Source: a virus | Reading direction: 5' to 3' (one strand) | DNA: 21,528 nt | IMG/VR virus record: IMGVR_UViG_3300010885_046861 | Span: 1 to 21,528 of that record | In this document: positions 3 through 21,528 of the stretch, one piece after another | Numbering within the stretch: position 1 is the stretch's first letter | How the letters are laid out: every line of letters starts with the position of its first letter | Translations under genes and position numbers: made by a program | Notes under the pieces: model-generated | Database searches by the model: none | Seen by the model: the letters and a program-made list of their open reading frames with translations, nothing else | Told to the model about the DNA's origin: nothing

Positions 3-1874
3 ATGTCAAATAATACAAGAAAAGATATAAAGTATATTAATAAAGACTTTAGTAACTTTAGACAATCTCTAATAGAGTTTGCAAAAAGTTACTTCCCAAA
101 TACATACAATGATTTTAATGAAACATCTCCAGGTATGATGTTTATTGAAATGGCTGCCTATGTAGGAGACGTTCTTTCTTATTATACAGATAATCAACTA
201 AAAGAAAGTTTATTATCATATTCCCAAGAAAGATCGAACTTATTACAGTTAGCTCAGGAACGTGGATATAAACCAAAGAATTCTGTACCGGCAACTGTAA
301 ATTTAGATGTATTTCAATTATTGCCAGCAATACAATCTGGTTCTATATACTATCCTGATTGGAATTATTCTTTATCGATAAATCAAGAAATGATCGTTAA
401 AGCTACGAATTCTAATATACAATTTAGAACAATTGAACCAGTAGTTTTTACTTCTGCATCTATTACTAAAACTGGCGGAGATTCTTTATCAGTTTATCAA
501 GTAGATTCTAGCAATAACCCAGTTTATTATTTATTAAAAAAACAAGTAAAAGCTGTTGCTGGAACAATTACAACTCAAACATTTACATTCGGAGCTCCAA
601 AAAGATACGATAAAATTATTTTAACTGATACTAATATAATTGAAGTTTTAGATATTATAGATTCTGATGGAAATACTTGGTATGAAGTTCCTTATTTAGC
701 GCAAGATACTATTTTTGATGAAATTAAGAATGACCAATATGCAAATGTAAATTATACATCATCTAATGGTGTTGCTCCATACTTATTAAAACTTAAAAAA
801 GTATCTAGAAGATTTGAAACAAGAGTTAATGGAGATAATACAATTACAGTTCAATTTGGAGCAGGTGTATCTACATCAGCAGATGAAGAATTAATACCTA
901 ATCCAGATTTAGTTGGAAGTTCGTTATATTCTCCAAATTTTGATTATTCAATTGACCCTAGTAATTTTTTATATTCTAAAACATATGGTTTAGCACCTGC
1001 AAATACTACATTAACAGTAAGATATACAACAGGTGGAGGAATTGAATCAAACGTTCAAGCAGATACATTAACCACTATTGCTGGAGTTACATTTGATTCT
1101 GACGGATCGGGTTTAAATCAAGCTTTATTTACTAGAATAAAAAATTCAGTAGCCGTAAACAATCCAGTACCAGCAGTTGGCGGAAAGAGCTTAGAAAGTA
1201 TTGATGAAATTAGATTTAATGCAATTGCAAATTTTGCTTCTCAAAACAGAGCAGTAACAGTTGAAGATTATATTGTAAGAGTATATGCAATGCCACAAAG
1301 ATTTGGTTCGGCAGCAAAAGCATATATTTTACAATCTAAAGATAAGGTGACTGATAAAGGTGTTGTTACATCTAATCAATTAGCAATGGATTTATATGTA
1401 TTGGGATATGATTTAAATAAAAATTTAACACCATTAAATTTAATCATTAAATCTAACTTGTCTACATATTTAGAACAATATAGAATGATTACAGATGCTA
1501 TTAATATTAAAGATGCATATATCGTAAATATCGGATTAGAGTTTAGTATAGTAGTATTACCAGGATATAACAGTAATGAAGTATTATTAAAATGTATTTC
1601 TAAATTAAAAGACATTTTTGATATTAATAAATGGCAAATCAATCAACCAATTGTTTTATCAAAATTATATGCAGAATTAGATAGAGTTGATGGTGTTCAA
1701 ACAGTATCAAATATTACAATCAACAATTTAACAGGAGGCGATATAGGATATTCAAATAATAAGTATGATATTGCGGCTGCTACAAGAAACGGTGTAATTT
1801 ATCCTTCATTTGATCCTTGTATATTTGAAATCAAATACCCGAATAAAGACATTAAAGGTAAAGTAACTAGTTAA
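3..1874 (+). CDS. Baseplate wedge protein, T4 gp6-like (baseplate J family)
   Basis: Probably the baseplate wedge protein that, in T4-like phages, dimerises around the inner baseplate and helps trigger sheath contraction. At 623 residues it is close to T4 gp6 (about 660). Residues 15-72 carry the family's conserved N-terminal block: an FRQSLIEFAKSYFP segment, then SPGMMFIEMAAYVGDVLSYY. Residues about 393-424 (GGKSLESIDEIRFNA, then RAVTVEDY) match the central signature of baseplate J proteins. The remainder is a beta-rich, non-membrane protein. The first bases read TAATG, so an upstream gene could end with a TAA overlapping this ATG by one base, but that gene lies outside the window. The next structural gene begins 11 bases after its stop. 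The family call is confident; exact equivalence to gp6 rests on motif memory and on the neighbouring gp7-like gene. Confidence 0.85.
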   Translation: MSNNTRKDIKYINKDFSNFRQSLIEFAKSYFPNTYNDFNETSPGMMFIEMAAYVGDVLSYYTDNQLKESLLSYSQERSNLLQLAQERGYKPKNSVPATVNLDVFQLLPAIQSGSIYYPDWNYSLSINQEMIVKATNSNIQFRTIEPVVFTSASITKTGGDSLSVYQVDSSNNPVYYLLKKQVKAVAGTITTQTFTFGAPKRYDKIILTDTNIIEVLDIIDSDGNTWYEVPYLAQDTIFDEIKNDQYANVNYTSSNGVAPYLLKLKKVSRRFETRVNGDNTITVQFGAGVSTSADEELIPNPDLVGSSLYSPNFDYSIDPSNFLYSKTYGLAPANTTLTVRYTTGGGIESNVQADTLTTIAGVTFDSDGSGLNQALFTRIKNSVAVNNPVPAVGGKSLESIDEIRFNAIANFASQNRAVTVEDYIVRVYAMPQRFGSAAKAYILQSKDKVTDKGVVTSNQLAMDLYVLGYDLNKNLTPLNLIIKSNLSTYLEQYRMITDAINIKDAYIVNIGLEFSIVVLPGYNSNEVLLKCISKLKDIFDINKWQINQPIVLSKLYAELDRVDGVQTVSNITINNLTGGDIGYSNNKYDIAAATRNGVIYPSFDPCIFEIKYPNKDIKGKVTS

Positions 1875-1885
1875 ATAATTAAATA

Positions 1886-2965
1886 ATGATTTATCATTTA
1901 TATTCAGATCAAGACGCAACGATATACGAAAAAGAACCGACATTAAATGCTGGTTTAGACGAAGTATTGGAGTTAGAAAAAGTTGTTACTAGTACTAGTA
2001 TTATTGAAGTATCTAGAATCTTAATAAACTTTAATGCTAGTCAATCAATTGCTAGTTTAAGAAGTCAAGGATTGATTTCTACCGGAAGTTTAGTTTCTAC
2101 ATTAAAATTATATAGTTTAGAAGCTATTGATGTACCGGTAGATTATACCGTTGCTTGTTACCCAGCATCTCAATCATGGACAAGAGGAACAGGAAAAGTA
2201 AGTTATATACCATTTTTAACTGATGGTGTTTCATGGCAATATGCAACAGCATCAACCCCATGGATAACTGGTTCATTTGCTGCGGGTGTTACGGGTTCGT
2301 ATTTAGTAAATAAAATGGGAGGAAATTGGTATACAGTATCAGAATCTAAACAAACATTTACTTATTCTCCTTTAAGACAAGATCTAAATTTAAATGTATC
2401 TAATATCGTAAATTCTTGGTTAAGCGGTTCTATTAAAGAACAAGGATTTATAATTAAAGTGTCCGGCTCATTAGAATATGATACTCAAACTTACGGCCCT
2501 ATTCAGTTTTTTAGTAATGAAACAAATACAGTTTATCCTCCTAGATTAGAATTAGCATGGGACGATTCTTTATTTGTAACGGGTTCATTACCTGCATTAT
2601 CAACTGATAGATATACAATTATAACAAAAAATCTTAATAAACAATATGATGAAAATTCAGTTGATATAGTAAGATTAATATCAAGACCATTATTTCCTGT
2701 TAGAACATTTGCAACGGGAAGTGCATATAATATTGTGCAATATCTTCCAAGAACCACATACTATGGCGTAGAAGATTTTTATACGGGAGAATCTTTAGTT
2801 CCGTTTAGTGACTATACTAAAGTAAGCTGTGATAGCGCAGGCAATTATTTTAAATTTAATTTTAATATACTTCAAAAAAATAGATTTTATAGATTTGTTT
2901 ATAAAGTAAATAATAATGGGTTAACAAAGTATTTTAAAACCGATGAGGTTTTTAGTGTAATATAA
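1886..2965 (+). CDS. DNRLRE-like virion structural protein
   Basis: A 359-residue protein, probably part of the baseplate or tail periphery. It opens with YHLYSDQDATIYEKEPTLNAG and continues with a run of beta strands. A block at about residues 95-125 contains SWTRGTGK, then TDGVSWQYA. Around residues 165-230 there are NIVNSWLSGS and PPRLELAWDD. This order (a D-A-T-I-Y opening, a W-x-R-G-T-G block, a late P-P-x-L-x-x-W) resembles DNRLRE/CBM96-type beta-sandwich domains found in phage structural proteins. Seven TGS or SGS tripeptides punctuate the sequence. No signal peptide or membrane segment is seen. It sits between the gp6-like and gp7-like genes, which supports a baseplate-associated role. 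It starts at the first ATG after the previous stop, behind an A/T-only leader. A carbohydrate-binding role is possible but not shown. Confidence 0.6.
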   Translation: MIYHLYSDQDATIYEKEPTLNAGLDEVLELEKVVTSTSIIEVSRILINFNASQSIASLRSQGLISTGSLVSTLKLYSLEAIDVPVDYTVACYPASQSWTRGTGKVSYIPFLTDGVSWQYATASTPWITGSFAAGVTGSYLVNKMGGNWYTVSESKQTFTYSPLRQDLNLNVSNIVNSWLSGSIKEQGFIIKVSGSLEYDTQTYGPIQFFSNETNTVYPPRLELAWDDSLFVTGSLPALSTDRYTIITKNLNKQYDENSVDIVRLISRPLFPVRTFATGSAYNIVQYLPRTTYYGVEDFYTGESLVPFSDYTKVSCDSAGNYFKFNFNILQKNRFYRFVYKVNNNGLTKYFKTDEVFSVI

Positions 2966-2966
2966 T

Positions 2967-3758
2967 ATGGCAAGAAATAGTTTAGGACAGTTTATAGTTC
3001 AAGAAAGTGGTAGTAGTGTTGTTAGCATTAAATGTGATGAATTATATATCACAAAAACTCAGTATGATCTTTTTTTATTAGATAATAAAGAATTTACAGA
3101 ATTAACACCTACAATTGATAAAGATGCTTTAATTAATTCATTAACAAATGAAATTACCGGATTAAATAATCAAATTAACGTATTTAAAACAAATTTAACT
3201 CAAGAGCAAATAAATTCTAGAGGTGGGTGTAATGTAGGTATTAGAATATCATCATCTGCAGCACCAAACAAAACATATAACGGTAAATTTTATGGCGAAA
3301 GCATTGGATTTGATATTTTATCAAGCCCAGACGGTATATATTATAATGCTATACAAACTAATGGTAAGTCTACATATAACGTAACTGATAAAGGGGCTAC
3401 ATTATATAAAGATGCTCAAAGTAGAGGGTATTATACTTTAAAGGCTACTATAAAATATCGATATAGATATGTAGGATTAAATACAATTAATCAAGATAAT
3501 GCTACAACTAAAATACAATTTTGGAAGTTTACAAATGGAAGCTCATCTCCAATCGGCGGCGGTGTTGAAAGAGAAGATAATATAGCATTTACATATAAAC
3601 CTGGTGATACTACCAAATCATTTACAATAAACTTATTAGATACAAACCAAGGATTAGGAGGTGAGACAGATTTAATTTATTTACCTGTACTAAAAATGCC
3701 AGATAATTTTATAATGGAAATACTTCCTGGGTCGACATTTACAATATTACCAGAATAA
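2967..3758 (+). CDS. Structural protein of unknown function with short N-terminal coiled coil
   Basis: I do not recognise a specific family for this 263-residue protein. Residues 1-45 are mixed and include IKCDELYITKTQYDLFLL. Residues about 50-80 form a likely helix or short coiled coil (INSLTNEITGLNNQINVF). The remainder looks like one beta-sandwich of about 180 residues with many Y, G and T, including YGESIGF, YYTLKATIKYRYRYVGL and a C-terminal PDNFIMEILPGSTF. There is no signal peptide, membrane segment or catalytic motif. The gene begins one base after the stop of the DNRLRE-like gene and ends three bases before the gp7-like gene, so it is almost certainly co-transcribed with them. By position it is probably a small baseplate component, for instance a trimer initiated by the short coil; that role is inferred. 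Confidence 0.55.
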   Translation: MARNSLGQFIVQESGSSVVSIKCDELYITKTQYDLFLLDNKEFTELTPTIDKDALINSLTNEITGLNNQINVFKTNLTQEQINSRGGCNVGIRISSSAAPNKTYNGKFYGESIGFDILSSPDGIYYNAIQTNGKSTYNVTDKGATLYKDAQSRGYYTLKATIKYRYRYVGLNTINQDNATTKIQFWKFTNGSSSPIGGGVEREDNIAFTYKPGDTTKSFTINLLDTNQGLGGETDLIYLPVLKMPDNFIMEILPGSTFTILPE

Positions 3759-3761
3759 CAA

Positions 3762-6700
3762 ATGCTTATAGATAATTTACTTCAAACAGATAAACCAATT
3801 TACGACCCTGGATTTAATAATACTGATTTATTAATAGCAGGTCAAGTAAACACTAAAATACCTACTGCCTCAATTAGCAAATATGAAGTAAATATATATT
3901 CTTTTAATGGTATATTACTTGAAAGCTATATACAAAATAATCCAGTTCTATTTAGAAATACATCTGCAAGCAAATATTTAGATATTAACTTATCTACATA
4001 TTTTGATCAAAGCAATTTAAATTCTGGTAAGTATTATTATATAGTTAATTCTTACGGTACAGTAATGGACCGACTTGTAGTAGAAGAAATTTCGTCTACA
4101 AGAACAGAGATTAGATTATTAAAGAGTAGAGAAAAGAGCTTTATTGCAATTGAACTACCGACGGAAATACCAATGGCAGGTGTTGTAACTACACAAACTG
4201 TTGAAGAAACAAATACAACGCAAACTGCACCTAATATTGTACCTACTGATTTTGATAATTATTTAATTTATAAAAATACAAATCCACGATTATCTCAATT
4301 TAAAAATATATTTCTTAATTTTGGACAAAATAGACTTTATAGAGTTATTAATATTGAAAACTTTGGTGCTCCGACATATGAAATACTAATTAAATTATAC
4401 GAGCCTCTACCAATTGATATTGATATTAAACAGCTTTGTCAACTTGATGAAGTTTATTTTAGTTATGGAGATGTAGCAGAATATATTCAAAATGTAGAAA
4501 TTGTAGACCCTACAATACAAATTAAAGGTCCTAATTTTAATATTGATGTAGATTTTTATAAAAATTCAACTACGGGCTTTCAAACATGGAATGATTTATT
4601 AGATGTAAATTTATCTACATCACAACAAATTATTGATTCATATTTTGGAGAATCATTACAAGGTATTAAGTTAAATATTGATTATAGTAAGCCAGAACAA
4701 TTTGTATTTTATAGTTCTGCAGAAGAAAGATTTAATAACTTTTATTATAAGATACAATTAATAGAAGATTACAATAAGCAATTAATTGCTCTTAACAATA
4801 TTAATCAATCTATAAAATCTTCAAATATTATTGACGTCACTAAAAAGCGTAATAAAATAATTACAGGCTTTGATGATTTTGAAAAGTATTTATATTTTGG
4901 TACTGAATCTGGAAGTTTATATACATTTTATACCGGAAGTGTAGCTACTTGGCCTAAAACAACTACGGGTAGTTTAAATTGGCTAGAAGCATATAACTAT
5001 TGGGTTGATACTTATTCTACCGGTTCATTAAATACCAATATTGGATATAACTTACAAAGTACTACATCTACAATTGTAAAAACATACGCAGAAGATACAA
5101 TAGCAATATTACGAGAATATGATAAAAATAATATCAGTTCTTTATTAAAAACAGTACCGGCTAGTCTTACTCTAGACGAAAGTAACTCGGAATATTTTGT
5201 ATTTGTAAATATGATAGGTCATCATTTTGACATTATCTATACATATATTAATCATTTAAGTTCAATACATTCTAGAGAAGAACATCCCTTAGATGGTATT
5301 AGTAAAAGTTTATTAACTGATGTTGCAGATTCTTTTGGATGGAAATTAGTTAATTCTAAAAAGAAAGATAGTCTTTGGAGATACATAACTGGATTAAATT
5401 CTGATGGAAATTATCTTCAAACAGGAAGTTTAACTCCGACAATTTCTACGGAACAATATACCTTAGAAATTTGGAATCGTATTGTAAATAACTTACCTTA
5501 CTTATTAAAAACAAAAGGAACAAAACGTTCTATTCAAGCTTTAATGTCTTGTTATGGAATTCCTTCTACTGTTATTAATATTAAAGAATTTGGAGGGCCT
5601 ACAAAAAATAATATACAACCAGATTGGCAAATGGATAAGTTTATTTATTCTTTAGAATTTGGAAATAATACGGGGTCTATAACAATTCCATGGGATACAT
5701 TAACAACAACAAATAGAACACCAGATACAGTTCAGTTTAGATTTAAACCAGATACTAGTGTTGCATTATATCCTCGTACATTATTAAGAACAAATAACTC
5801 TGGTAATCCATATTTTTATATAACATATGATCAGCCAAATAGTTATAATTCTAAAGAAGGACAATTAACATATTATCTACTTCAACCAGATTCTACATAT
5901 GTAAGTGCATCTCTTAATAACATACCAATGTTTAATGGAGATTGGACGTCGGTTAGTATTCAACGAACTTATTTACCAACTTCATCAACATCATATGTAT
6001 CTGCATTTAAAACAAGAGTAGCTAGTAGCGCTGGGACATTAGAAGCAGAAAGTTGTTTAACATCTACAATAAGTAGTTTAATAACTTTAGATTCTATATC
6101 ATCATTTACAATTGGTGCTGTTGTTAAGAATTATGATAAAATAATTTATAATTCTTATAGCTCCGTAACCGGGTCTAATTTGTACTATAATCTAACCTCG
6201 AATATCATAATAGGGTCTGCTAGTTTTGGCACGTCTAATAAAGCATTTGATGGTAATTTAAATGAGTTTAGGTATTGGTCGTATTTATTAAATAATGATT
6301 CGATGGTCCAATATGCTAAGAATCCATTATTTTACGGAGGTAATGCAGATCAAGATGCTTATGATTATTTAAGTTTTAGATTACCATTATCTTATTTAAT
6401 AACAACAACCGGAAGTTATCCATCAGTTCATCCTAATCAAAGTATTTCAAGTTTTATAAGTGCAGCTTCAGCAGCAACATTTAACGGATTTCAAGATGGA
6501 GATTTAGGAGGAGAAGATTATACAACATATGTAGTTACTCCTAGTTTAGGAAGCGATAATTTATATTCTACAAAAATAAGAGTAGTATCAAATTCTTTAA
6601 CTAGCTCATTAAACCCAGAACATACTGCGGAAACCTTAACGTCTGAACAAACACCAAAAGATACTAATGTAGTAGGTATTTATTTATCTCCACAAGACAT

Positions 6701-9594: not shown

Positions 9595-11091
9595 ATGGCA
9601 GAATATAAAATAATAAGTTCAATACAAGATTCAAATATAACTACATATACTGCTCATAAGAACTGGAATTTTACATCTCAATCTTTTACTGACTCAAGAT
9701 TTAAATATTTGCGTGGCATTTATTCAAATAAATACGTAACTATAAGTGCATCATCTGCAATCGGAGAACTTCAAAATTCTGACGGAAGTTATATGAAAAA
9801 TACATATATAGGTATTAATCATTTATACTATTCTTATTATCCAAACTTTGGATATGTTAGTTATCCTATAGGAAGTTTTATTAGAAATTTAAATAAAGAA
9901 TTAGTAACATATTCTGTTCCGAGAATTAAAACGGGTTATGAAATAAAACCTGGTAGTTTATCTTTAACAGTTACTGGAAACGCTAATGAAACAATTACTT
10001 TACAAGATAATGGTAATTACGAATTAATAGATACTAGAATTAACACATCAAGCTTTGCATCAAATAGCATTATTTATCTAGGATTTAATAATGGATTTGA
10101 TTTAAGTTATATTCCAGATAACTATTACTCTAAAGATATAAGTTATACTACGGGTATTAGTAGTAGTAATTACACTCATGGATATCAAGCTAATTTTAAC
10201 GGGTCTTCATCATATATACAAGTTGTAGATAATTTAGATAATTGGTTTAATACTTTTGATAATGACTTTGCAATATCATTTTGGATTAATCCATCATCAA
10301 CCGCAACTACACAATCAATTATATCTAAAAAATGGTTAAATAATACATTATTACAAGCATATCCATTTGATATATTTTATACTAGTGCATCTATTAATTT
10401 TAAACGATCGGATAGCAATTTAACAATTACCATATCATCTGGTTCAATAAATACAAATACTCAACACCATATTGTTTGTCAAAAAACCGGAAGTGTTTTA
10501 CAAATATATAAAAATGGAAGTTTATTAAATTTTGGAACTGATACAACAAAAGAAAAAGTATCAAACAAAAGTAGTATATATTTAGGAGCAGCAAATACAG
10601 CAGGACTAACACCATTTAGTGGAAGTTTAGATGAAGTGAGGTTTTATAGTAAAGCACTAACTCAAAGTGAAATAACATCATTATCTACAATAACTGATAC
10701 AAATTATTCAGCGCTTCAAACTAATAAAGTTGGAAATATATTTTATGATCAAGGAATGACAGTTTATTCTCCTTATCAAAACGAATTAATTTCATCATCA
10801 TTCACAAGAGACTTTACTTTATCATATAAAAGTAGTTTAGATATAGAACAATCAAAATACTATATCAATGTTCCTATGAATGATTTTAATACAAGTACCA
10901 ATCCTTCATTATATGATTCTACAGGGTCACTTCTTTCATTCGCAACTGGGTCTGATTTTAATCCATATATAACAACAATTGGATTATATGATACAAATTA
11001 TAATTTAGTAGCAGTTGCAAAATTAGGATCACCAATACCAAAAAGAAACGACATTGATCTAAACTTTGAAGTAAGATTTGATAGATCATAA
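9595..11091 (+). CDS. Structural protein with LamG-like domain and conserved phage C-terminal domain
   Basis: A 498-residue probable tail or baseplate-periphery protein. Residues 1-160 are a beta-rich N-terminus without a family I can name. Residues about 165-355 look like a LamG/concanavalin-type sandwich: ANFNGSSSYIQV, then FAISFWINPSS, IYKNGSLL, and a closing GSLDEVRFYSKALT, which is the classic end of laminin-G-like domains. Residues about 375-498 form the domain shared with the preceding gene (VGNIFYDQGMTVYS, then an NDFNTSTNP block, then YITTIGLYDTNYNLVAVAKL). LamG-like modules in phage tails often contact sugars, so glycan binding is a reasonable guess. It is the first gene after the terminator and ends 16 bases before the resolvase gene, with no intervening terminator. 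Confidence 0.6.
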   Translation: MAEYKIISSIQDSNITTYTAHKNWNFTSQSFTDSRFKYLRGIYSNKYVTISASSAIGELQNSDGSYMKNTYIGINHLYYSYYPNFGYVSYPIGSFIRNLNKELVTYSVPRIKTGYEIKPGSLSLTVTGNANETITLQDNGNYELIDTRINTSSFASNSIIYLGFNNGFDLSYIPDNYYSKDISYTTGISSSNYTHGYQANFNGSSSYIQVVDNLDNWFNTFDNDFAISFWINPSSTATTQSIISKKWLNNTLLQAYPFDIFYTSASINFKRSDSNLTITISSGSINTNTQHHIVCQKTGSVLQIYKNGSLLNFGTDTTKEKVSNKSSIYLGAANTAGLTPFSGSLDEVRFYSKALTQSEITSLSTITDTNYSALQTNKVGNIFYDQGMTVYSPYQNELISSSFTRDFTLSYKSSLDIEQSKYYINVPMNDFNTSTNPSLYDSTGSLLSFATGSDFNPYITTIGLYDTNYNLVAVAKLGSPIPKRNDIDLNFEVRFDRS

Positions 11092-11107: not shown

Positions 11108-11524
11108 ATGGCAAAAAAGAAATTTTCAATAAGAGCATTAGCTCGTAAACATGGATATCGTTCTGGATTAGAAGATCAAATATCAGAGCAACTTAAGTTC
11201 ACAGGAAAAACATGGAGTTATGAATCCGAAAAATTAAAATATACTGTACCAGAAAGAATAGCAACATATACTCCTGATTTTATTTTAATAAAAAAAGATG
11301 GAAGTAAAATGTATATTGAAACAAAAGGTAGATTTACCACGGCAGATAGAAAAAAGATGAAGTTAGTAAAAGAAGCTAATCCAGAATTAGATATACGTCT
11401 TTTATTTCAAACTCCAAACAACAAAATCATTAAGACATCTAAAACTACCTACGCAGATTGGGCAGCTAAACACGGATATCTTTGGGCAGCTAAAGAAATT
11501 CCTACTAAATGGCTAGAAGAATAG
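11108..11524 (+). CDS. T7 endonuclease I-like Holliday junction resolvase
   Basis: Likely a structure-specific endonuclease that resolves four-way junctions and other branched DNA during replication, recombination or packaging. At 138 residues it is close to T7 gp3 (149) and can be followed through it by eye: YRSGLEDQISEQL near the N-terminus, TYTPDFIL, IETKGRF, the ELDIRLLFQ strand, and a C-terminal KHG...IPTKWLEE. The four catalytic residues of T7 endonuclease I (Glu20, Asp55, Glu65, Lys67) correspond here to Glu22, Asp57, Glu71 and Lys73, all present. The N-terminus is rich in Lys and Arg, fitting DNA binding. It lies 24 bases before the primase gene and 16 bases after a tail gene. T4 itself uses an unrelated resolvase (endonuclease VII), so the type is notable for a T4-like phage. 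Confidence 0.9.
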   Translation: MAKKKFSIRALARKHGYRSGLEDQISEQLKFTGKTWSYESEKLKYTVPERIATYTPDFILIKKDGSKMYIETKGRFTTADRKKMKLVKEANPELDIRLLFQTPNNKIIKTSKTTYADWAAKHGYLWAAKEIPTKWLEE

Positions 11525-11548: not shown

Positions 11549-12496
11549 ATGGATAATACTAAATTAGTTTCTTCTGTAGAGTCAATATTAGGTAAAGGTA
11601 GAAAAACCTCAAATGGTAACGTAGCATATCACTGTCCATTTTGTAACCATCATAAACGTAAATTAGAAGTACAAATGATTATTAATTCTAAAGGAGAAAA
11701 TCCTTGGAATTGTTGGGTATGTCAAAAAAAGGGAAAAAAATTAGTTAATCTTTATAAACAATTAAATGCTGGTTATGATAAAATTGTAGAGCTAAATAAA
11801 GCATTAGGAGTTGTTACTAAAGATATTAATAGTTTATTTACGGAATATTCAAACTATACATCAACCCACTTATCATTACCTACAGAATATAAGTCTTTTT
11901 TAGAAGCAGATAATACTCCTAATTACAGAAATGCTTTAAAATATTTAAGAGAAGATCGTGGATTTACAAATTTTGATATTATAAAATATCATCTAGGATT
12001 TTGCGAAACAGGACAATACAGACATAAAATTATTATTCCTAGTTATAATTTATCCGGAAGTTTAAATTTCTTTGTTGGTCGAGATTTTTATGGTTCTGAT
12101 TTTAAACATAAAAATCCAAATGTAAGTAAAGATATAATAGGGTTTGAATTATATGTGAACTGGAATTTACCCGTAGTATTAGTTGAAGGCGCGATTGATG
12201 CAATGACAATTAAAAGAAATGCTATTCCATTATTTGGAAAGACTATTCCAGATGAACTTAGAAAAAGGTTAGTGGAAAAGAAAGTAAAAGAAATTTATAT
12301 TTGTTTAGATAAAGATGCTCAAAAACAAGCATTAAATGTAGCAAATGAATTTATGGATGAAGGTATTATAGTTTATTTTGTAGACCTTCAAGAAAAAGAT
12401 CCAAATGAAATTGGATTTGAACGAATGATTAAAATTATTAAAGAAACAAAACCTTTATCATTTGCAGATTTGATAAAGTATAAATTAAATATATGA
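11549..12496 (+). CDS. DNA primase, T4 gp61-like (zinc finger plus Toprim)
   Basis: Probably synthesises RNA primers for lagging-strand replication, working with a replicative helicase encoded elsewhere. The 315-residue protein is near the size of T4 gp61 (342). A zinc-binding N-terminal domain has CPFC at residues 29-32 and CWVC at 55-58, separated by a basic stretch. A Toprim fold follows: VLVEGAIDAM with the key Glu at 213, and IYICLDKDAQ with Asp254 and Asp256; an EKDPNEIG segment near 280-288 matches the end of primase Toprim domains. No helicase motifs follow, so it is a stand-alone primase, unlike T7 gp4. The stop overlaps the start of the Mre11-Rad50 gene (ATGA), suggesting translational coupling. 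The ATG is only one base after a TATATTATCTTA motif, so there is no ribosome binding site. Confidence 0.88.
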   Translation: MDNTKLVSSVESILGKGRKTSNGNVAYHCPFCNHHKRKLEVQMIINSKGENPWNCWVCQKKGKKLVNLYKQLNAGYDKIVELNKALGVVTKDINSLFTEYSNYTSTHLSLPTEYKSFLEADNTPNYRNALKYLREDRGFTNFDIIKYHLGFCETGQYRHKIIIPSYNLSGSLNFFVGRDFYGSDFKHKNPNVSKDIIGFELYVNWNLPVVLVEGAIDAMTIKRNAIPLFGKTIPDELRKRLVEKKVKEIYICLDKDAQKQALNVANEFMDEGIIVYFVDLQEKDPNEIGFERMIKIIKETKPLSFADLIKYKLNI

Positions 12497-15400
12497 TTAA
12501 AATTCATAAAATAAATAATAAAATAACTAATATTCAATATATTATTCATATTGCAGATATTCATATTCGCTTACAAAAGCGACATGAAGAATATCGTACA
12601 GTATTTTCTAGATTATATGATTATTGTAAAAACTTTAAATCTAATAATCCAAATACAATTATTTATGTAGCCGGAGATATAGCTCATTCTAAGACAGATA
12701 TGTCGCCTGAGCAAATAAATATGATTCAAGACTTTTTTAGGTCCTTAGCAGATATTACAGATACAATTGTAATTACTGGTAATCATGATATGAATTTAAA
12801 CAATAAAACTAGATTAGATGCATTAGAGCCTATTATTAATGCTCTTAATCATTCTAATTTATTTTATTTAAAAAATACCGGTGTTTATGAATTAGGTAAT
12901 GTTTATTTTAATGTAATGGGTGTAGCTGATAGACCAGTAACATTTATTAAAGGAATAGATATACCAAACGATAAAATTAAAATTGCTCTTCATCATGGTG
13001 CAGTAAATCAAGCTTCGACAGCCGTTGGATTTCAATTAACAAACGATCATGTAAATACAGAAACATTTGCAAACCACGGAATTACATTATTAGGAGATAT
13101 ACATAAATTTCAATACTTAGATTCTAATAAAACTATTGCATACGCTTCTAGTCTTATTCAACAAAATTTTGGAGAGACTTTAGATTTTCATGGATTAATG
13201 ATTTGGGATGTTAATACAGCTCAATCTAAATTTATAGAAGTAGAAAATGATTATGGGTATGTTACTTTAGAAGTTAGTAATGGTATTATAACATCATACC
13301 CAGCAAAATTTCCAAAAAAACCTAGAATTAAATTAAAAATTCAAAATACAACATCTTCTCAAATAAAAACAATTATAGCAGATTTAAAATCTAAATATAA
13401 TGTTCAAGATATCGTAACACAAAAAGTAAAAGATTTTCATAAAGACAATTCCAATACAACAAAAATATCTTTAGGTAATGTTAGAGATGTAGAATATCAA
13501 AATACAATACTAACAGATTATTTAACAAATCGTTTAGATATTGATGAAGATGAAATTTTAGATGGCGTACGTCATATTAACAGGATAATTAACTCTAAAC
13601 TACAAAGTGCAGATATTCCTAAAAATATAACATATAATCTTATGAAATTTGAATTTTCAAACATGTTTAGTTACGGAGAAAATAATGTTATAGATTTTAG
13701 TCAAATGAATGGAATTTATGGATTATTTGCTTCTAACAGAAGTGGTAAAAGTTCATTATTAGATTCATTATTATATTGCATTTTTGATAAATCTACAAAA
13801 ACAGATAAAGCAGCTTATGTTTTAAATAATAAAAAAGATTCATTTTCTTGTAAATTAGAAATAGAAATTAACAATAAAAAATACTTTATTGAACGTTCCG
13901 GAGTAAAACAAAAATCAGGCCATGTTAGAGTAACTGTTAGTTTTTATACATTAGATGATGCGGGTCAAGTAGTTTCATTAAACGGCCAAGAGCGTGATGA
14001 AACAAATGCCATTATTAGAACATACTTAGGGACATATAAAGATTTTATCTTAACTTCAGTAATCGCTCAAAATAACAATACTGGCTTTATTGAAATGACT
14101 CAAAAAGAACGTAAAGATTTATTATCACAATTTTTGGATATTAATATTTTTGATGATTTACAAAAAATTGCAGCAGAAGAAATTAAAGATGTACATGCTC
14201 TTTTAAAAGATTTACAAAAACAAGACTTTGGTGGTCGTATTTCTGAAGCAGATTCTATTATAAAAGAAAATGAAAAATCTCATAAAGAATTAGATGGTAA
14301 ACGTTTAATATTAGAAGAAAGTATAACAAAGAATGAAGCTTCTTTATTAGATATTGCTCAACAAATTATTCCATTATCAGGTGTAAGTTATGACTTAAAT
14401 AAACTGCAAACTAATTTAGATGTAGCAAACCAAAGATCTGAAAAACTTTTATCTGAGATAACCGATATATCTAATGAAATTAGCTATTTAGATGAACGTA
14501 TACAGCCTTTAATAGATAAACTAAATACTTTTAATATGGATGAGATTGAAGGTGCTTTAAATCAATTAAAATTGTATGACGAGCAACATAAAAAATTGCT
14601 ATCTGATATAAAAGTTAAAGAAGTACAACATTCTCATATTCTAGACAAAATGAAAAAACTAGAAGATTTAGAATATGACCAAAATTGTACATTTTGTATG
14701 AATAATATATTTGTAAAAGATGCTATTCAAACTAAAGAAACGTTGTCTTTTCATGAAAATGAAATTAAAGATTTATTAAAGAAACAAGAATCTCTTGAAA
14801 TTGCAATAAGTGGTTTAGAACAATATACTCTTCAAAATTTAGAAGTTAATGATATTAAGATAGAAATTCAAGAAATTAAAAATAAAAAATCTTCTTTAGA
14901 ATTAACTTCAAGTCAAAAGAAAGTTGGATATGCAGCAGCGGAAAGTTTAAAGAAAGAATCTGTTGATAGCATTGCAAAGTATAATGAAAATAAAGAAGCT
15001 ATTGAATATAACTTATCGTTTACGGGAGAAATTAATCGTATTAAAGAAGAGTTAGGCCAATATAAATCTGAACTAAGTATTATTAATTCTCAAATGTCTA
15101 AATTAATAACTGGCATTGAATTACAAAAACAAAATAAAACTAATGCTTTAAATAGTATTGAAAAACTTAGATCATTAGAACGTGAATATAAATTTTATGA
15201 ATTATATTTATCTGCAACAAATCGTAACGGAATTCCATATGATTTAATTTGTAAGGTAATGCCTCAAATTGAAACGGAAATTAATAATGTATTAGGGCAA
15301 TTGGTAGATTTTAATATTATGCTTCAAACAGATGAAAAAAATATTAATGCATATATTGTTTATGACGATGACAATTATTGGCCCTTAGAATTGACATCTG

Positions 15401-15669
15401 GAATGGAAAGATTTATTAGTTCATTAGCAATAAGAAATTCGTTAATTAGTATCACTAATTTACCTAAGCCAAATTTTATTGCTATTGATGAAGGGTTTAC
15501 TCAATTAGACTCTGAGAATATGAATCAAGTATACTTACTGTTTAATTATCTTAAGACACAATTTGATTTTATGATGATTATATCTCATATAGATGTTATG
15601 AGAGATATGGTAGAACATTTTATTGATATTAAAAAAGAGCAAGGATTTTCTAAAGTTTCACTTATGTAA
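12493..15669 (+). CDS. Single-chain Mre11-Rad50 (gp47-gp46 / SbcD-SbcC) fusion
   Basis: A 1058-residue recombination nuclease/ATPase. In T4 the gp47 nuclease and gp46 ATPase are separate and process DNA ends for recombination-dependent replication and host DNA breakdown. Here the nuclease part has ADIHI (Asp22, His24), GDIAH (61-65), GNHD (96-99), LHHGA (His167/168) and GDIHKF (201-206), the metallophosphoesterase motifs of Mre11. Residues about 250-375 fit the Mre11 cap/Rad50-binding region. The ATPase begins near 384 (MKFEFSNMFSYGENNVIDF) with Walker A ending SGKSS at 417-421, a coiled coil with zinc-hook-like CTFC (732-735), ABC signature LTSGMERF (967-974), Walker B FIAIDEG ending at 1001 and a switch His1032. 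Lengths are roughly 383 plus 675 residues versus 339 and 560 in T4. The reading frame is uninterrupted. It overlaps primase by four bases. Confidence 0.93.
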   Translation: MIKIHKINNKITNIQYIIHIADIHIRLQKRHEEYRTVFSRLYDYCKNFKSNNPNTIIYVAGDIAHSKTDMSPEQINMIQDFFRSLADITDTIVITGNHDMNLNNKTRLDALEPIINALNHSNLFYLKNTGVYELGNVYFNVMGVADRPVTFIKGIDIPNDKIKIALHHGAVNQASTAVGFQLTNDHVNTETFANHGITLLGDIHKFQYLDSNKTIAYASSLIQQNFGETLDFHGLMIWDVNTAQSKFIEVENDYGYVTLEVSNGIITSYPAKFPKKPRIKLKIQNTTSSQIKTIIADLKSKYNVQDIVTQKVKDFHKDNSNTTKISLGNVRDVEYQNTILTDYLTNRLDIDEDEILDGVRHINRIINSKLQSADIPKNITYNLMKFEFSNMFSYGENNVIDFSQMNGIYGLFASNRSGKSSLLDSLLYCIFDKSTKTDKAAYVLNNKKDSFSCKLEIEINNKKYFIERSGVKQKSGHVRVTVSFYTLDDAGQVVSLNGQERDETNAIIRTYLGTYKDFILTSVIAQNNNTGFIEMTQKERKDLLSQFLDINIFDDLQKIAAEEIKDVHALLKDLQKQDFGGRISEADSIIKENEKSHKELDGKRLILEESITKNEASLLDIAQQIIPLSGVSYDLNKLQTNLDVANQRSEKLLSEITDISNEISYLDERIQPLIDKLNTFNMDEIEGALNQLKLYDEQHKKLLSDIKVKEVQHSHILDKMKKLEDLEYDQNCTFCMNNIFVKDAIQTKETLSFHENEIKDLLKKQESLEIAISGLEQYTLQNLEVNDIKIEIQEIKNKKSSLELTSSQKKVGYAAAESLKKESVDSIAKYNENKEAIEYNLSFTGEINRIKEELGQYKSELSIINSQMSKLITGIELQKQNKTNALNSIEKLRSLEREYKFYELYLSATNRNGIPYDLICKVMPQIETEINNVLGQLVDFNIMLQTDEKNINAYIVYDDDNYWPLELTSGMERFISSLAIRNSLISITNLPKPNFIAIDEGFTQLDSENMNQVYLLFNYLKTQFDFMMIISHIDVMRDMVEHFIDIKKEQGFSKVSLM

Positions 15670-15698: not shown

Positions 15699-18600
15699 AT
15701 GTACAGAAAAGAATTGTTTTATAGAGGTTTAGACCAGCTTCCAGTATATATTGAAGATACTTTACAAAATTCTCCTTATTATTTTAATATTGTAGATATA
15801 CCTAAAGTATTTGGGCCTGGTAAAAACTCAATTAGATTTAATTTAAACGAAAATAATCTTGACATTTACAATAACGTAGATGTTGAGATTATTGATTCAT
15901 ATGGAAATACTGTATATCACGAAGCCCCGGAATATTTTCAAAGAGATGAAGAAAATATTAGAGTATTAACTGTATTTCTTTATGATGATATTTCTAATGG
16001 TCCATTAACAATTACTTTTGTAGGTTATGCAAAAGCAGGATTAAATGGAGAGGAAGTACCAGAAGAGTTTAAAGACAAATATAATGTTCGTTATACTACC
16101 ATAGTAGATTATAATCGATTCCAAAAAAATACAAGCAGATTATTATTTTCTCAAGACCCTTCTATTTCAATATCAGAAGCAAGAACAGCTTATGTTAGCA
16201 GAAGTTTAAGTCCATTAGATACAGTAACAGTATCAGGTAGCGGGATTTATCGTTATCAACAATCTTATCCATTATTAGATTTGCCTGCTGGCAAATCATT
16301 TATAAATGATATGCTTAATGGAACATTAATATTAACTGGCTCATCAATTTTACCTGATTTTAGTGGATATACAACATCTAGTTTTAATATATTTAATTCT
16401 AGAATATCTAATATTTATAATTCACAAGTAGCTATTTTAAATATTCCATGGACAGCATCTATACTTGGTCAAGGTTCATCTCCTTCATATGGATTAGTTA
16501 ATAATGCAAATGTAAATTATACATTAACATATAATCCAACGCCAAATTATACTCCTATAAATAACTTTAAATCATTTATAAATTTAAAGATATCTAATTT
16601 AGACCCGGCATCAGGTTACTTAAAATATATAAAATTATACGGAAAGAGCCAAGGTAGTTTAGACCAATATGAATTATTAGGAGAATCTCAGACAATAGAT
16701 AATGAATTATTAATTAATAGTGCTTCATATACACAATTTGATAGAAGTAATGTAGGATATTTTTTAAATACATCTTCATTTCAAAGTTTCTGGAACTATA
16801 ATAATACATACTTATCTGCTTCATTTAATACATCTAGTTTATTTAATTCATTATACTTAAATCCACAAGTAGATACTACATTAAATAATGTGTTATTTAC
16901 AAGTAATGTAGATATTAATTTCCAAAAAGAATCTTCATATAGATTGTATTTTAATTATGTAAGAGATACAAACTTTATATTAGAAGTATATATGTCTGGA
17001 TCTGCCTTTATAAATAAAGAAGGTAACGGTCAAAAAGTATTTTATTTAGATTCTTCAAACTTTGGTCCTTCATATTTAAACTTTCCTATTGATTTTTTAG
17101 CTACGCAAACAGGTACTGGAAGATTGCAGTTTAAAATAATAACGGGCAGTTTTTATATAAGCGATATTTCTTTAAAATCCGGAGTTGATCAAGGATTTAA
17201 TCCTTCAAACTTTAATTCATATTTTCCAATTAACGTAAAAAATCGTAACGATGTATATGATTTTAAAGTAGATTTTATTGATGATAACAATCAAATCAAT
17301 AGTTATGAATTTGATAATGCAGGGGCTTCAAATATACAAGTATCTGGAAGTAATCAATTTATAAGTGGTTGTGATAATTTAATACCTGGATGTATACGTC
17401 TAGGAAATTCATTACAGCAAGGTATTCATTTAGACGGGCAAAATAATCAAGTTACGACTTATAATAATAGCACTGGATGGGTAATGTGGTCTGGAAGTCA
17501 AACAATAAGTGGAAGCAGCCAACCAGGGTCTGGATTTTATTTTGAAACAGGTGCACCATTTAATCATTATATAAAAGCTACAGTAGGAGGTCAAATACAA
17601 ATAAGCGGGAGTGTATCTGGCGCAACGGGAGGTACATCTGTAGATACGGGTTCATTTGTAACAACTAGTTCATTTAATAGTTTTACAAGCTCTATTAATA
17701 ATTTTACGAGTTCAATAAACAATATTACGAGTTCATTTGTAACTACTTCATCATTTAATAACTTTACAAGTTCCATTAATAGTTTTACAAGCTCCATTAA
17801 TAACTTTACCAGTTCTATTAATAATGCAACGGGTTCGTTTGCTACAACAAGCAGTAATACATTTAATGGTAATCAAATTATTAATGGTAGTTTAATTGTT
17901 ACTAATGGTATATCTGGAAGTTTAATAGATACGGGTTCATTTGTAACTACTTCATCATTTAATACATATACTTCTAGTATTAATAGTTTTACAAGCTCTA
18001 TTAATAATAAAACAGGTTCTTTTACAACTACGTCATCATTTAATAGTTTTACAAGCTCTATTAATAATGCAACTGGTTCATTAGTAACAACTAGTTCATT
18101 TAATAATTTTACAAGTTCCATTAATAGTTTTACAAGCTCTATTAATAATTTTACGAGTTCCATTAATAATAAAACAGGATCATTTGTAACTACATCATCA
18201 TTTAATAACTTTACAAGTTCCATTAATAACTTTACAAGTAGTATTAATAATATTACAAGCTCATTTGCGACTACCGGTAGTAATACTTTTAATGGAAATC
18301 AAATTATAACGGGTAGTTTATCAAACGGTGCTGCCACACAAGCACAAGGAGATTATTCTCACGCAGAAGGGTCTGGATCAAGAGCAGTTGGTAATTATTC
18401 ACACGCAGAAGGAGAAGGTACAATAGCAAATCGTAATTATTCTCATGCAGAGGGTATAGGGACTATAGCAAATGGTAATTATTCACATGCAGAGGGTATA
18501 GGTACAACAGCAAATGGATATGCTTCTCATGCTGAAGGATATGCTACATTTGCAAATGGAGATTATTCTCACGCAGAAGGAGAAAGTACAACAGCAAACG

Positions 18601-20663
18601 GTAATAATTCTCATGCAGAAGGTTCTGGCACGACAGCACAAGGAAATTATTCACATGCAGAAGGAGAAAATACAACAGCAAATGGATATGCTTCTCATGC
18701 TGAAGGTTTAGATACAATAGCAAACGGAGATTATTCACATGCAGAAGGATTAGGTACAATCGCATCTGGTTCATATCAAACAGTAGTAGGCAAATATAAT
18801 AAACAAAATAATTCTTCTTTATTTATTATTGGAAATGGAATTTCTGACGATGATAGAAGTGATATTGTATTAGTAAATAATAATAATATAGTTATAAATG
18901 GTAGTTTAGTTGTTACTAATGGTATATCTGGAAGTTTAATAAATACAGGTTCATTTGTAACAACTAGTTCATTTAATAATTTTACAAGTTCCATTAATAG
19001 TTTTACAAGTTCAATAAACAATAAAACAGGATCATTTGTAACTACATCATCTTTTAATAACTTTACAAGTTCTATTAATAATAAAACAGGTTCTTTTACA
19101 ACTACTTCATCATTTAATAATTTTACAAGCTCCATTAATAGTTTTACAAGCAGTATTAATAATGCAACAAGTTCGTTTGCTACAACAAGCAGTAATACAT
19201 TTAATGGTAATCAAAATATAATAGGTAGTTTATCAAATGGACTAAATACTAATGCATATGGAGATTATTCTCACGCAGAAGGTAATGAAACACAAGCATC
19301 TGGAGAATATTCTCACGCAGAAGGAGAAAGTACACAAGCAAATGGACATGCTTCTCACGCAGAAGGATATGCTACAATAGCACAAGGAGATTATTCTCAC
19401 GCTGAAGGATTAGGTACAACAGCAGTTGGAAATTATTCTCACGCAGAAGGAGAAGGAACTATAGCGTCTGGGTCTGGGGAAACAGTAGTAGGTAAATACA
19501 ATAAACAAAATAATACAAGTTCTTTATTTATTATTGGTAATGGAACAGATAATTATAACAGAAATGATTTAGTTTTATTTAATACTAGTAGCGTTGAAAT
19601 TAGTGGTTCTTTAATCGTTAATAATCAAACATTACCTGCAATTAATACTTTAATATCAAGTACTCAAACTGGGTCATTTGCTACAACATCATCATTGTAT
19701 TATATAGGCACAACTCCTATTTATTTAAACAGAACCAGTTCTAATCAAAACTTATATGGTATTAATATAGATGGAAATGCTATAACTGCTGGAACTGCTG
19801 GAACTGTATTAAATACTAATTTAGGAGCAACTGCTATAGGCGTAAGTCAATTTATATCATCTTCTGAGTATTCTAAACCTGCTGGTTATCAAGGATATTT
19901 AGTACATAGTTCTATCGGCTTACCTGCTGGAGTATCAGGATGGCTAGCATATAATGTTGTAGGTAAAAGAGATGTAGAAGAAGGAACTTTTGCTACATTA
20001 ACAAGTCAAAATGGAAGTATGTGGTTTGGATTTGCTCTTACTTCAAGTGTTTATCCTACTTGGACTAAAATTCAAACTGTTGATGCATTTAATGCAATAT
20101 CAAGTTCTTTTACAACTACTTCATCATTTAATAATTTTACAAGTTCCATTAATAATGCAACTGGTTCATTTGTAACTACATCGTCATTTAATACATATAC
20201 ATCTAGTGTACAATCAGCTATTAATAGTATAGGAGGTAAAGCAAATCTTGTCGGCGGTAATACATTTAGCGGAGATCAAACAATAAGCGGTTCTTTAGAA
20301 TTTACAGCTGCTAATACTGCTATTACTAGTAATATTAAAATTACTGATATTCAAAATGGCAACCCGTCTACACTATATCAATTTAATGGAGATAGGTATA
20401 GAGGAGCATTTGGAGATATGATGATAACAGATGAAAACGATCCTACACGTTTAGAACTTGTTCGTTTTAGTATAGCCCTTAAAATTAACAATAGCGGTGT
20501 TTTAGATTCATACAGCGTTATAACATCCTCAGCAGATTTAACTGATATATCATTCTCTACAGATATAAGCTCAATATCAAATGTAAAAATAATAGCGTCT
20601 GTTGCTGGTGGAGGATATACATATACAGCTAGAATATCCAATGTGCATCTTTTAGCAATTTAA
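15699..20663 (+). CDS. Modular repeat tail fibre / adhesin with SHAEG (YadA-head-like) arrays
   Basis: A 1654-residue probable trimeric tail fibre for host recognition. Residues 1-160 (RGLDQLPVYIED, VEIIDSYGNTVYHEAPE, LTITFVGYAKAG) are non-repetitive and likely the virion attachment end. Residues about 160-630 are beta-rich structural domains. Four runs of FTSSINN-type heptads (residues 650-719, 745-861, 1083-1165, and from 1468) alternate with NTFNGNQ...GSL beta segments and with 14-residue SHAEG repeats at 884-1024 and 1188-1257. Each SHAEG array ends in TVVGKYNKQNN, then LFIIGNG, a cap typical of these adhesin-like heads. Residues about 1385-1460 resemble a pyocin-knob domain (QGYLVHS...GWLAYNV...WTKIQ). 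The C-terminus (YTYTARISNVHLLAI) is a compact beta end with no obvious chaperone domain. It follows the Mre11-Rad50 gene by 29 bases. Function is inferred from architecture. Confidence 0.8.
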   Translation: MYRKELFYRGLDQLPVYIEDTLQNSPYYFNIVDIPKVFGPGKNSIRFNLNENNLDIYNNVDVEIIDSYGNTVYHEAPEYFQRDEENIRVLTVFLYDDISNGPLTITFVGYAKAGLNGEEVPEEFKDKYNVRYTTIVDYNRFQKNTSRLLFSQDPSISISEARTAYVSRSLSPLDTVTVSGSGIYRYQQSYPLLDLPAGKSFINDMLNGTLILTGSSILPDFSGYTTSSFNIFNSRISNIYNSQVAILNIPWTASILGQGSSPSYGLVNNANVNYTLTYNPTPNYTPINNFKSFINLKISNLDPASGYLKYIKLYGKSQGSLDQYELLGESQTIDNELLINSASYTQFDRSNVGYFLNTSSFQSFWNYNNTYLSASFNTSSLFNSLYLNPQVDTTLNNVLFTSNVDINFQKESSYRLYFNYVRDTNFILEVYMSGSAFINKEGNGQKVFYLDSSNFGPSYLNFPIDFLATQTGTGRLQFKIITGSFYISDISLKSGVDQGFNPSNFNSYFPINVKNRNDVYDFKVDFIDDNNQINSYEFDNAGASNIQVSGSNQFISGCDNLIPGCIRLGNSLQQGIHLDGQNNQVTTYNNSTGWVMWSGSQTISGSSQPGSGFYFETGAPFNHYIKATVGGQIQISGSVSGATGGTSVDTGSFVTTSSFNSFTSSINNFTSSINNITSSFVTTSSFNNFTSSINSFTSSINNFTSSINNATGSFATTSSNTFNGNQIINGSLIVTNGISGSLIDTGSFVTTSSFNTYTSSINSFTSSINNKTGSFTTTSSFNSFTSSINNATGSLVTTSSFNNFTSSINSFTSSINNFTSSINNKTGSFVTTSSFNNFTSSINNFTSSINNITSSFATTGSNTFNGNQIITGSLSNGAATQAQGDYSHAEGSGSRAVGNYSHAEGEGTIANRNYSHAEGIGTIANGNYSHAEGIGTTANGYASHAEGYATFANGDYSHAEGESTTANGNNSHAEGSGTTAQGNYSHAEGENTTANGYASHAEGLDTIANGDYSHAEGLGTIASGSYQTVVGKYNKQNNSSLFIIGNGISDDDRSDIVLVNNNNIVINGSLVVTNGISGSLINTGSFVTTSSFNNFTSSINSFTSSINNKTGSFVTTSSFNNFTSSINNKTGSFTTTSSFNNFTSSINSFTSSINNATSSFATTSSNTFNGNQNIIGSLSNGLNTNAYGDYSHAEGNETQASGEYSHAEGESTQANGHASHAEGYATIAQGDYSHAEGLGTTAVGNYSHAEGEGTIASGSGETVVGKYNKQNNTSSLFIIGNGTDNYNRNDLVLFNTSSVEISGSLIVNNQTLPAINTLISSTQTGSFATTSSLYYIGTTPIYLNRTSSNQNLYGINIDGNAITAGTAGTVLNTNLGATAIGVSQFISSSEYSKPAGYQGYLVHSSIGLPAGVSGWLAYNVVGKRDVEEGTFATLTSQNGSMWFGFALTSSVYPTWTKIQTVDAFNAISSSFTTTSSFNNFTSSINNATGSFVTTSSFNTYTSSVQSAINSIGGKANLVGGNTFSGDQTISGSLEFTAANTAITSNIKITDIQNGNPSTLYQFNGDRYRGAFGDMMITDENDPTRLELVRFSIALKINNSGVLDSYSVITSSADLTDISFSTDISSISNVKIIASVAGGGYTYTARISNVHLLAI
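17646..17855 (+). repeat. Heptad repeat run 1 in fibre gene
   Basis: Fibre residues 650-719 are built from FTSSINN/FTSSINS heptads, encoded by near-identical 21-base units such as TTTACAAGCTCCATTAATAA. Phe and Ile are spaced 3-4-3-4, as in coiled coils, and TTSSF segments break the register. A single NTFNGNQ segment separates it from run 2. Confidence 0.85.
17884..17947 (+). repeat. 64-base duplicated linker, copy 1
   Basis: Encodes the NGSLIVTNGISGSLIDTGSF linker before heptad run 2. It matches 18898-18961 with three base differences in 64, showing that a whole fibre module has been duplicated. Confidence 0.85.
17931..18281 (+). repeat. Heptad repeat run 2 in fibre gene
   Basis: Fibre residues 745-861, the longest run of FTSSINN-type heptads. 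Interruptions are NKTGSF or NATGS segments. It leads directly into NTFNGNQ and the first SHAEG array. Confidence 0.85.
18348..18771 (+). repeat. SHAEG repeat array 1 (10 copies of a 42-base unit)
   Basis: Ten 14-residue units of the form G-x-Y-SHAEG-x-x-T-x-A-x occupy fibre residues 884-1024. SHAEG is invariant in protein while the DNA varies at silent positions (CAC/CAT, GCA/GCT, GAA/GAG, GGA/GGT/GGG). The pattern resembles YadA head (Hep/Hag) repeats that wind into a trimeric left-handed beta-roll. The array ends in the TVVGKYNKQNN cap. Confidence 0.88.
18898..18961 (+). repeat. 64-base duplicated linker, copy 2
   Basis: Second copy of the segment at 17884-17947, encoding NGSLVVTNGISGSLINTGSF. 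It restarts a heptad run after the first SHAEG head and its cap. Confidence 0.85.
18945..19193 (+). repeat. Heptad repeat run 3 in fibre gene
   Basis: Fibre residues 1083-1165 repeat the FTSSINN heptads and NKTGSF breaks of runs 1 and 2. The run precedes NTFNGNQ and the second SHAEG array. Confidence 0.85.
19260..19470 (+). repeat. SHAEG repeat array 2 (5 copies of a 42-base unit)
   Basis: Five SHAEG units at fibre residues 1188-1257, half as many as array 1, with the same closing ETVVGKYNKQNN cap and LFIIGNG. It appears to be a shortened version of the first head module. Confidence 0.87.
20100..20220 (+). repeat. Short heptad run 4 near fibre C-terminus
   Basis: A short reprise of the SSFNNFTSSINN repeat, then FNTYTSSVQSAIN, from fibre residue 1468. 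It lies between the pyocin-knob-like region and the C-terminal beta domain and probably acts as a final stalk segment. Confidence 0.75.
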
Positions 20664-20675
20664 TATTTATAATAT

Positions 20676-21528
20676 ATGAATAAAACAATAGCACTTTTCC
20701 CTGGAAGATTTCAACCTTTCGGAAAACATCATGCAGCTGCATTTATGTGGCTTCAAAATAAATTCGGCAAAGAAAATACTTATATCGTAACATCAAATAA
20801 AGTAGACCCAGAAAAATCTCCTTTTAATTTTAACGAAAAGAAAGCCATTATTGAACTATATGGTATTGACCCGTCTCATATTATTGAAGTAAAGAATCCG
20901 TACAGTCCCGCAGAACTATATGGCCAAATTGACCCGGAAACTACTTCGGTAGTATTTATGGTTGGAGAAAAAGATATGGGAGAAGATCCTCGATTTAAAA
21001 TAGGAACGAAGAAAGACGGAAGTCCTAGTTTTTTTCAAAACTTTAAAGGAAATGAAAATAACTTAGAGCCATTATCTAAACATGGATATTTAATTACTGC
21101 TCCGCATATTTCATTAAAAGTGCCTGGGTATGGAGAAATGTCCGGAACAGAAATAAGAAGAGCATTAGGAGATATTACAAAAACACGAGAAGAAAAGAAA
21201 GAAATATTTCAAGAAATATTCGGATGGTATTCAGAAAAAATGGCTAACTATATATTTGATAAACTAGAAAATAAAATGACAGAAAAATTTAGTAAAGATT
21301 GGTGGTTAAATAAACTACTTCAAGAAGATTGTTGGGATGGATATAAACAAGTTGGTATGAAGAAAAAAGGAAAAAAGCAAGTTCCTAATTGCGTTCCTAT
21401 TAATGAGGATGAATTAATTATACATGCTTTAGAAAGTGCCGGTGGCAGTTCTATACAATTATTATTGTGCGGAGGTGCGGCCGGTCATATGAAACACCCC
21501 TTTGATTTACCTCAAGTAAATTCTGGTA
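20676..21528 (+). CDS. NMNAT-like nucleotidyltransferase with extra C-terminal phage domains (partial, runs off the window)
   Basis: 284 complete codons are visible with no stop before the window edge. Residues 1-165 form a HIGH-superfamily nucleotidyltransferase most like archaeal-type NMN adenylyltransferase (NadM): FPGRFQPFGKHHAAAF at 8-23, SPFNFNEKKAII at 48-59, a VFMVGEKD strand at 93-100, and MSGTEIRRAL at 155-164, matching the family's SGTEIRR motif. The first motif reads GKHH where HxGH is usual. Residues about 205-245 (WWLNKLLQEDCWDGYKQVG, then a basic stretch and VPNCVP) form a segment I recall from proteins of marine T4-like phages. Residues 266-284 (CGGAAGHMKHPFDL...) resemble an element that, in such phages, precedes a ligase-like nucleotidyltransferase domain. 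The adenylyltransferase call is good; substrate and the downstream domain are inferred. The gene starts 12 bases after the fibre stop. Confidence 0.78.
   Translation, partial: MNKTIALFPGRFQPFGKHHAAAFMWLQNKFGKENTYIVTSNKVDPEKSPFNFNEKKAIIELYGIDPSHIIEVKNPYSPAELYGQIDPETTSVVFMVGEKDMGEDPRFKIGTKKDGSPSFFQNFKGNENNLEPLSKHGYLITAPHISLKVPGYGEMSGTEIRRALGDITKTREEKKEIFQEIFGWYSEKMANYIFDKLENKMTEKFSKDWWLNKLLQEDCWDGYKQVGMKKKGKKQVPNCVPINEDELIIHALESAGGSSIQLLLCGGAAGHMKHPFDLPQVNSG

Follow-up and report, generated by a model that had tools for sequence, protein, structure and literature searches.

A conserved Mre11-Rad50 fusion of the R555 type encoded by a phage

Mre11-Rad50 is, in most organisms, a two-part enzyme that trims and holds broken DNA ends. 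The question raised here is whether a single long frame in a 21,528-nucleotide stretch of viral DNA (IMG/VR record IMGVR_UViG_3300010885_046861; referred to as the window) genuinely encodes both parts as one chain and, if so, what such a chain might do. The frame is open for 1058 codons from an ATG start that overlaps the stop codon of the upstream primase gene (ATGA, 12493-12496). Pfam, PHROG and PDB sequence searches assigned its first third to a Mre11/SbcD-type phosphoesterase and the rest to a Rad50/SbcC-type ATPase. Specifically, Pfam Metallophos covered residues 17-205 (E 3e-9) and AAA_23 covered residues 389-600 (E 1.7e-8), each exceeding its curated cut-off, SbcD-like phrog_100 was matched by residues 2-335 (2.9e-17), SbcC-like phrog_77 was matched by the fused protein (1e-42), and a phmmer search of PDB sequences linked the C-lobe to Rad50 C-lobe structures. 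The features so defined, together with the adjacent genes, are listed in Table 1.

Table 1. Features of the fused gene and its upstream neighbors (window positions; residue numbers refer to the fused protein).
Feature	Positions	Strand	Basis
T7 endonuclease I-like Holliday-junction nuclease, cassette member	11108..11524	+	Phage_endo_I 4e-40, phrog_945; in many related loci
DnaG/Toprim-type primase, cassette member, overlaps start of fusion gene	11549..12496	+	phrog_47 4e-35, Toprim_2; adjoins fusion in most related loci
Fused Mre11-Rad50 (SbcD-SbcC) CDS	12493..15669	+	1058 aa; same fused frame in 103/106 loci
Mre11-type metallophosphoesterase domain, residues 15-240 (D22xH24; GD..H, 61-65; GNHD, 96-99; H168; GDxH, 201-204)	12535..13212	+	Pfam Metallophos; motifs compared with split proteins; invariance
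Mre11 capping domain, residues 241-330	13213..13482	+	AlphaFold2 strands 254-311; probable, by analogy with Mre11
Helix-loop-helix that likely binds Rad50, residues 333-347 and 353-368	13489..13596	+	AlphaFold2 helices; matches its place in the T. maritima complex (PMC3175470)
Junction linker, 11 residues (369-379)	13597..13629	+	AlphaFold2; junction (331-384) dN/dS about 0.1
Rad50 ATPase N-lobe, residues 380-560 (Walker A ASNRSGKS; Q-loop Q526)	13630..14172	+	Pfam AAA_23; motifs; AlphaFold2
First coiled-coil arm, residues 561-725, fast-evolving	14173..14667	+	AlphaFold2 helices; dN/dS 0.26-0.53
Zinc-hook CxxC (C732, C735)	14686..14697	+	Invariant in 60/60
Second coiled-coil arm, residues 746-909	14728..15219	+	AlphaFold2
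Rad50 ATPase C-lobe, residues 910-1058 (signature TSGME; Walker B AIDEG; D-loop LD; switch H1032)	15220..15666	+	Motifs; AlphaFold2; phmmer

To these profile matches could be added the conservation of individual residues, considered across 60 aligned fused proteins, namely, that of the window and 59 others sharing 39-88% identity with it. In the nuclease half, a calcineurin-like fold and phosphoesterase motifs I-IV are present and conserved (Pfam and the alignment), and every motif residue given in Table 1 is invariant in 60/60 sequences, save for H24, which is histidine in 58/60. In the ATPase half, the Rad50/SbcC set is complete, comprising Walker A, Q-loop, signature, Walker B, D-loop and switch histidine and being split by a coiled coil bearing a CxxC hook; here, A413..GKS of Walker A, Q526, both hook cysteines, SGME (969-972), D999/E1000, D1006 and H1032 are likewise invariant in all 60. 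The match of the frame to the motifs of Mre11 and Rad50 is far beyond chance. As such, an earlier reading made from the letters alone (the original prediction), which proposed one uninterrupted 1058-codon Mre11-Rad50 frame, was borne out by Pfam, PHROG and the alignment. All of the motifs that it had listed are present and nearly all are invariant, with two details proving inexact: GDxH had been taken for a canonical Mre11 motif, when the canonical form is GHxH and the aspartate is specific to the fused clade, and of the 'HH' pair only H168 is invariant, residue 167 being H, Y or F.

The arrangement of the two halves was next considered in an AlphaFold2 model of the single chain, based on an alignment of 60 sequences (mean pLDDT 83, with a pTM of only 0.44). 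The model places, in order, the phosphoesterase core, the cap, the two helices of the helix-loop-helix, an extended linker and the Rad50 ATPase, the first strand of which spans residues 380-389. The coiled-coil arms, each of about 165 residues, meet at a CxxC turn at residues 732-735 and are followed by the C-lobe. The Rad50-binding helix-loop-helix thus runs straight into the ATPase N-terminus, as had been predicted. Yoshida et al. estimated that 9-12 residues of linker are needed in such a fusion (PMC3175470), a value with which the 11-residue linker of the model agrees; the protein accordingly possesses both the linker and the helix-loop-helix of an R555-like fusion. When the model was compared with the PDB using Foldseek, Mre11-Rad50 complexes (Chaetomium, E. 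coli SbcCD, T. maritima and human) appeared among the SMC-like matches. In a structural search of BFVD, the top five among the matches listed were Mimiviridae-type proteins (Tupanvirus, Harvfovirus, Yasminevirus, Terrestrivirus and Catovirus), with the Tupanvirus protein sharing 26% identity with the window protein in the structural alignment; R555 did not figure among the matches named.

Because the window is a 21.5-kb metagenomic fragment, the possibility that the fused frame reflects an assembly or sequencing artefact joining two adjacent genes had to be weighed. Joined frames can, indeed, appear sporadically, given that Listeria phage LMTA-57 (KJ591605.1) contains a single 1009-aa SbcD-SbcC ORF (positions 1738-4767) in the place of two genes, separated by 94 bp, in its relative A511; the LMTA-57 ORF is either an independent and very recent fusion or a sequencing error. 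Relatives of the window gene were, therefore, sought. In IMG/VR, 24 stretches with close relatives were found, while a profile-guided scan revealed at least 562 stretches with relatives, the best 80 of these at least 562 being retained. Across the 106 loci examined, which include that of the window and a few from the same contig, both halves lie in one frame in 103 and are split in none, the other three loci being cut by contig ends. None of the 103 fused loci has a stop or frameshift at the junction, in line with the uninterrupted frame of the original prediction. Moreover, an isolate, Microcystis phage Mel-JY01, contains a fused CDS of 1066 aa, and the fusion is also present in the huge-phage records LR756501 and LR756503 (735 kb) and LR756508 (484 kb), although in the last an ORF has been inserted into the nuclease half. 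Finally, the junction (residues 331-384) yielded dN/dS values of 0 to 0.12 when the window was compared with six relatives, near those of the catalytic lobes and below those of the coiled coils. The junction, hence, evolves under purifying selection, with a dN/dS of about 0.1. With independent contigs and an isolate genome agreeing, an artefact is hardly credible and was rejected.

The fusion is real, strongly conserved and common in aquatic phages, and is of a type already described in 2011. At that time, Yoshida, Claverie and Ogata (2011) reported Mre11/Rad50 fusions from Mimivirus (R555), plasmids, bacteria and eukaryotes as well as from a Bacillus phage, identified as 0305phi8-36 (PMC3175470). 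The same study found R555 homologues to be abundant in aquatic metagenomes and enriched in the viral fraction, noted phage primase and T7-type endonuclease genes on metagenomic R555-homologue scaffolds and suggested phages as the carriers, with the environmental fusion being confirmed for only a few long scaffolds (PMC3175470). The rarity implied by the original prediction is not supported, in view of that paper, hundreds of environmental phage contigs, an isolate phage and giant-virus homologues; many described phages with the same fusion, it had been said, would make the finding unremarkable, and this is largely the case. What can now be added is that about 100 loci, one of them from an isolate phage, carry the fusion intact and that it is the only version seen there, supporting the 2011 proposal that environmental R555-like genes are largely phage-borne.

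The likeness to R555 extends to details. As in R555-like fusions, the window protein is a single chain with Mre11 first and a linker of similar length, and the GDxxH of motif II and the His-to-Asp change at the metal ligand described for Mimivirus R555 (PMC3175470) correspond to the GDxxH and GDxH variants of the window protein. The primase and T7-type endonuclease genes of the aquatic scaffolds form exactly the cassette of the window. Given this gene-for-gene agreement with the 2011 description and the Mimiviridae-type BFVD matches, the window protein is a well-supported addition to the R555-like fusions. The two proteins differ in that R555, from an amoeba virus, is 1351 aa long, whereas the 1058-aa protein has a shorter coiled coil and belongs to a bacteriophage. 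The Mel-JY01 protein (WWT39521.1), annotated only as 'AAA domain containing protein', is 42% identical over 97% of the protein, and its gene likewise lies just downstream of a primase gene, with a GIY-YIG protein encoded upstream where the window has endonuclease I.

The window protein also resembles T4 gp47/gp46 and the SbcD/SbcC proteins of Herelleviridae in domain content, in the nuclease preceding the ATPase in transcription and in the short, phage-type coiled coil. In those systems, however, there are two genes and a GHxH metal site, and in trees of both half-proteins the fused proteins form a group separate from the small number of split proteins sampled (SH-aLRT 98 and 96), although long branches and sparse sampling leave a single fusion event unproven by these trees. 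E. coli SbcCD shares the domain composition and the hook, but comprises two chains with a much longer coiled coil and very remote sequence.

The metal site itself raises the question of catalysis. At the motif V position corresponding to His206-x-His208 of P. furiosus Mre11, all fused proteins examined present GDxH, with D202 replacing the metal-ligand histidine in all 60 members, Mel-JY01 and LR756501. Canonical GHxH was absent from all 60 fused proteins, yet was found in 6/6 split proteins compared (T4 gp47, two from Herelleviridae, one from a Staphylococcus phage, a cyanophage gp47 and E. coli SbcD). Catalysis could, therefore, differ from or be weaker than that of the canonical enzyme. On this basis, and as R555 is reported to carry the same change (PMC3175470), the Mre11 half might be nuclease-poor, with the protein acting mainly as an ATP-driven end tether or a structure-specific endonuclease rather than as a resecting exonuclease. 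This is fairly improbable, since the other ligands (D22, D62, N97, H168 and H204) are invariant and aspartate is itself a good Mn2+ ligand, which suggests an altered but working site. The ABC signature of the fused clade is also modified, reading SGME rather than SGGE. Conceivably, if on the unlikely side, both substitutions changed along with the fusion to give a mechanistically distinct single-chain enzyme of altered nuclease specificity; were this so, phages would hold a very widespread Mre11-Rad50 subfamily whose nuclease specificity is unlike that of canonical Mre11-Rad50.

Genomic context was considered next. The order endonuclease I, primase, fusion is common to most loci with enough flanking sequence, such that the fusion usually sits inside a conserved cassette, and a long tail-type ORF is often found downstream. 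Baseplate wedge, endonuclease I and primase genes nearby point to a tailed phage, and the description of the 1058-aa protein as a Mre11-Rad50 fusion of such a phage is supported. A RecA-family gene was detected in 5/5 larger records examined; in the 197-kb relative, RecA profile matches at both contig ends suggest a circular or terminally redundant molecule. No second SbcC-type gene of comparable strength was found in the 197-kb, 145-kb and 132-kb relatives, nor was a separate SbcD-type gene found in the 197-kb relative or Mel-JY01. Backup by a split pair encoded at another site was thus rejected, the larger relatives holding none of comparable strength. Weak extra phrog_77 matches (E 7e-6 and 2e-4, mid-profile) were noted in Mel-JY01, as were weak phrog_100 matches in G002 and G005.

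Two chain kinds might still arise if the Rad50 half were also made separately, through an internal start or proteolysis. Residue 384 of the window protein, located in the strand that opens the Rad50 half, is indeed methionine, but this is so in only 2/60 relatives, and an internal start at M384 was rejected as the residue is not conserved. M391, which is invariant, falls past the first strand, within the conserved FSNMF motif, and no Shine-Dalgarno-like sequence precedes either methionine. Separate production of Rad50 is, accordingly, very unlikely.

Taken together, the motifs, architecture, matches to solved complexes, intact frame, selection at the junction, sole copy and presence of RecA argue that the gene very probably encodes a single-chain, R555-like phage Mre11-Rad50 (gp47-gp46) DNA-end-processing enzyme, with a likely role in recombination-dependent replication. 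Domain layout, conservation and context were computed here, while dimerisation, catalysis and biological role are drawn from characterised relatives; no biochemical test of any member of the fused family was found in the literature searched. T4 gp46/47 carries out end resection for recombination-dependent replication (PMC3175470), and the simplest reading is that one chain would perform this role in the phage considered here. By analogy, two fused chains would probably dimerise into the usual M2R2 head, in which the Rad50 lobes, opening and closing with ATP, would determine when DNA ends reach the active site of Mre11, with the hook coiled coils tethering the ends. During infection, the enzyme would most likely resect ends and clear blocked ones, allowing phage RecA to load and recombination-dependent replication to ensue, and the neighboring endonuclease I would resolve junctions and the primase prime restarted forks. 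A compact single chain of about 1050 aa would be well suited to biochemical and structural work on Mre11-Rad50.

Several further observations were made in the window and related loci. A scan of genome contigs revealed only two fused loci, both in MAGs. One, on CALBOT010000005.1, presents the endonuclease I-primase-fusion cassette on a contig assigned to a Candidatus Nitrosopelagicus MAG, and is probably viral contamination or else a clue to a host. The ORF interrupting the nuclease half in LR756508.1 (5623-6540) is inserted right after the GDIHK motif, contains zinc-finger-like cysteines and shows a weak TnsA-like endonuclease match (Pfam 5.8e-6), a pattern as expected of homing-endonuclease insertion. 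A group I intron in this copy was considered and rejected, there being no Rfam match. A TnpB/IS605 OrfB-like gene (1256-2473) also lies near the fused gene in this record. In the window, positions 9595-11091 encode a protein of structural type that carries a concanavalin/laminin-G lectin domain (Pfam 4.5e-21), and positions 15699-20663 a probable tail-fibre protein of 1654 aa, with a weak YadA head repeat match and 21-bp/81-bp (FTSSINN) and 42-bp (YSHAEG...ANGN) repeats (TRF scores up to 502). Positions 20676-21528 encode a cytidylyltransferase-like (NMN adenylyltransferase-type) N-terminal domain of a protein that runs off the window and whose relatives, reaching lengths above 800 aa, are encoded 3' of the tail gene in many loci.
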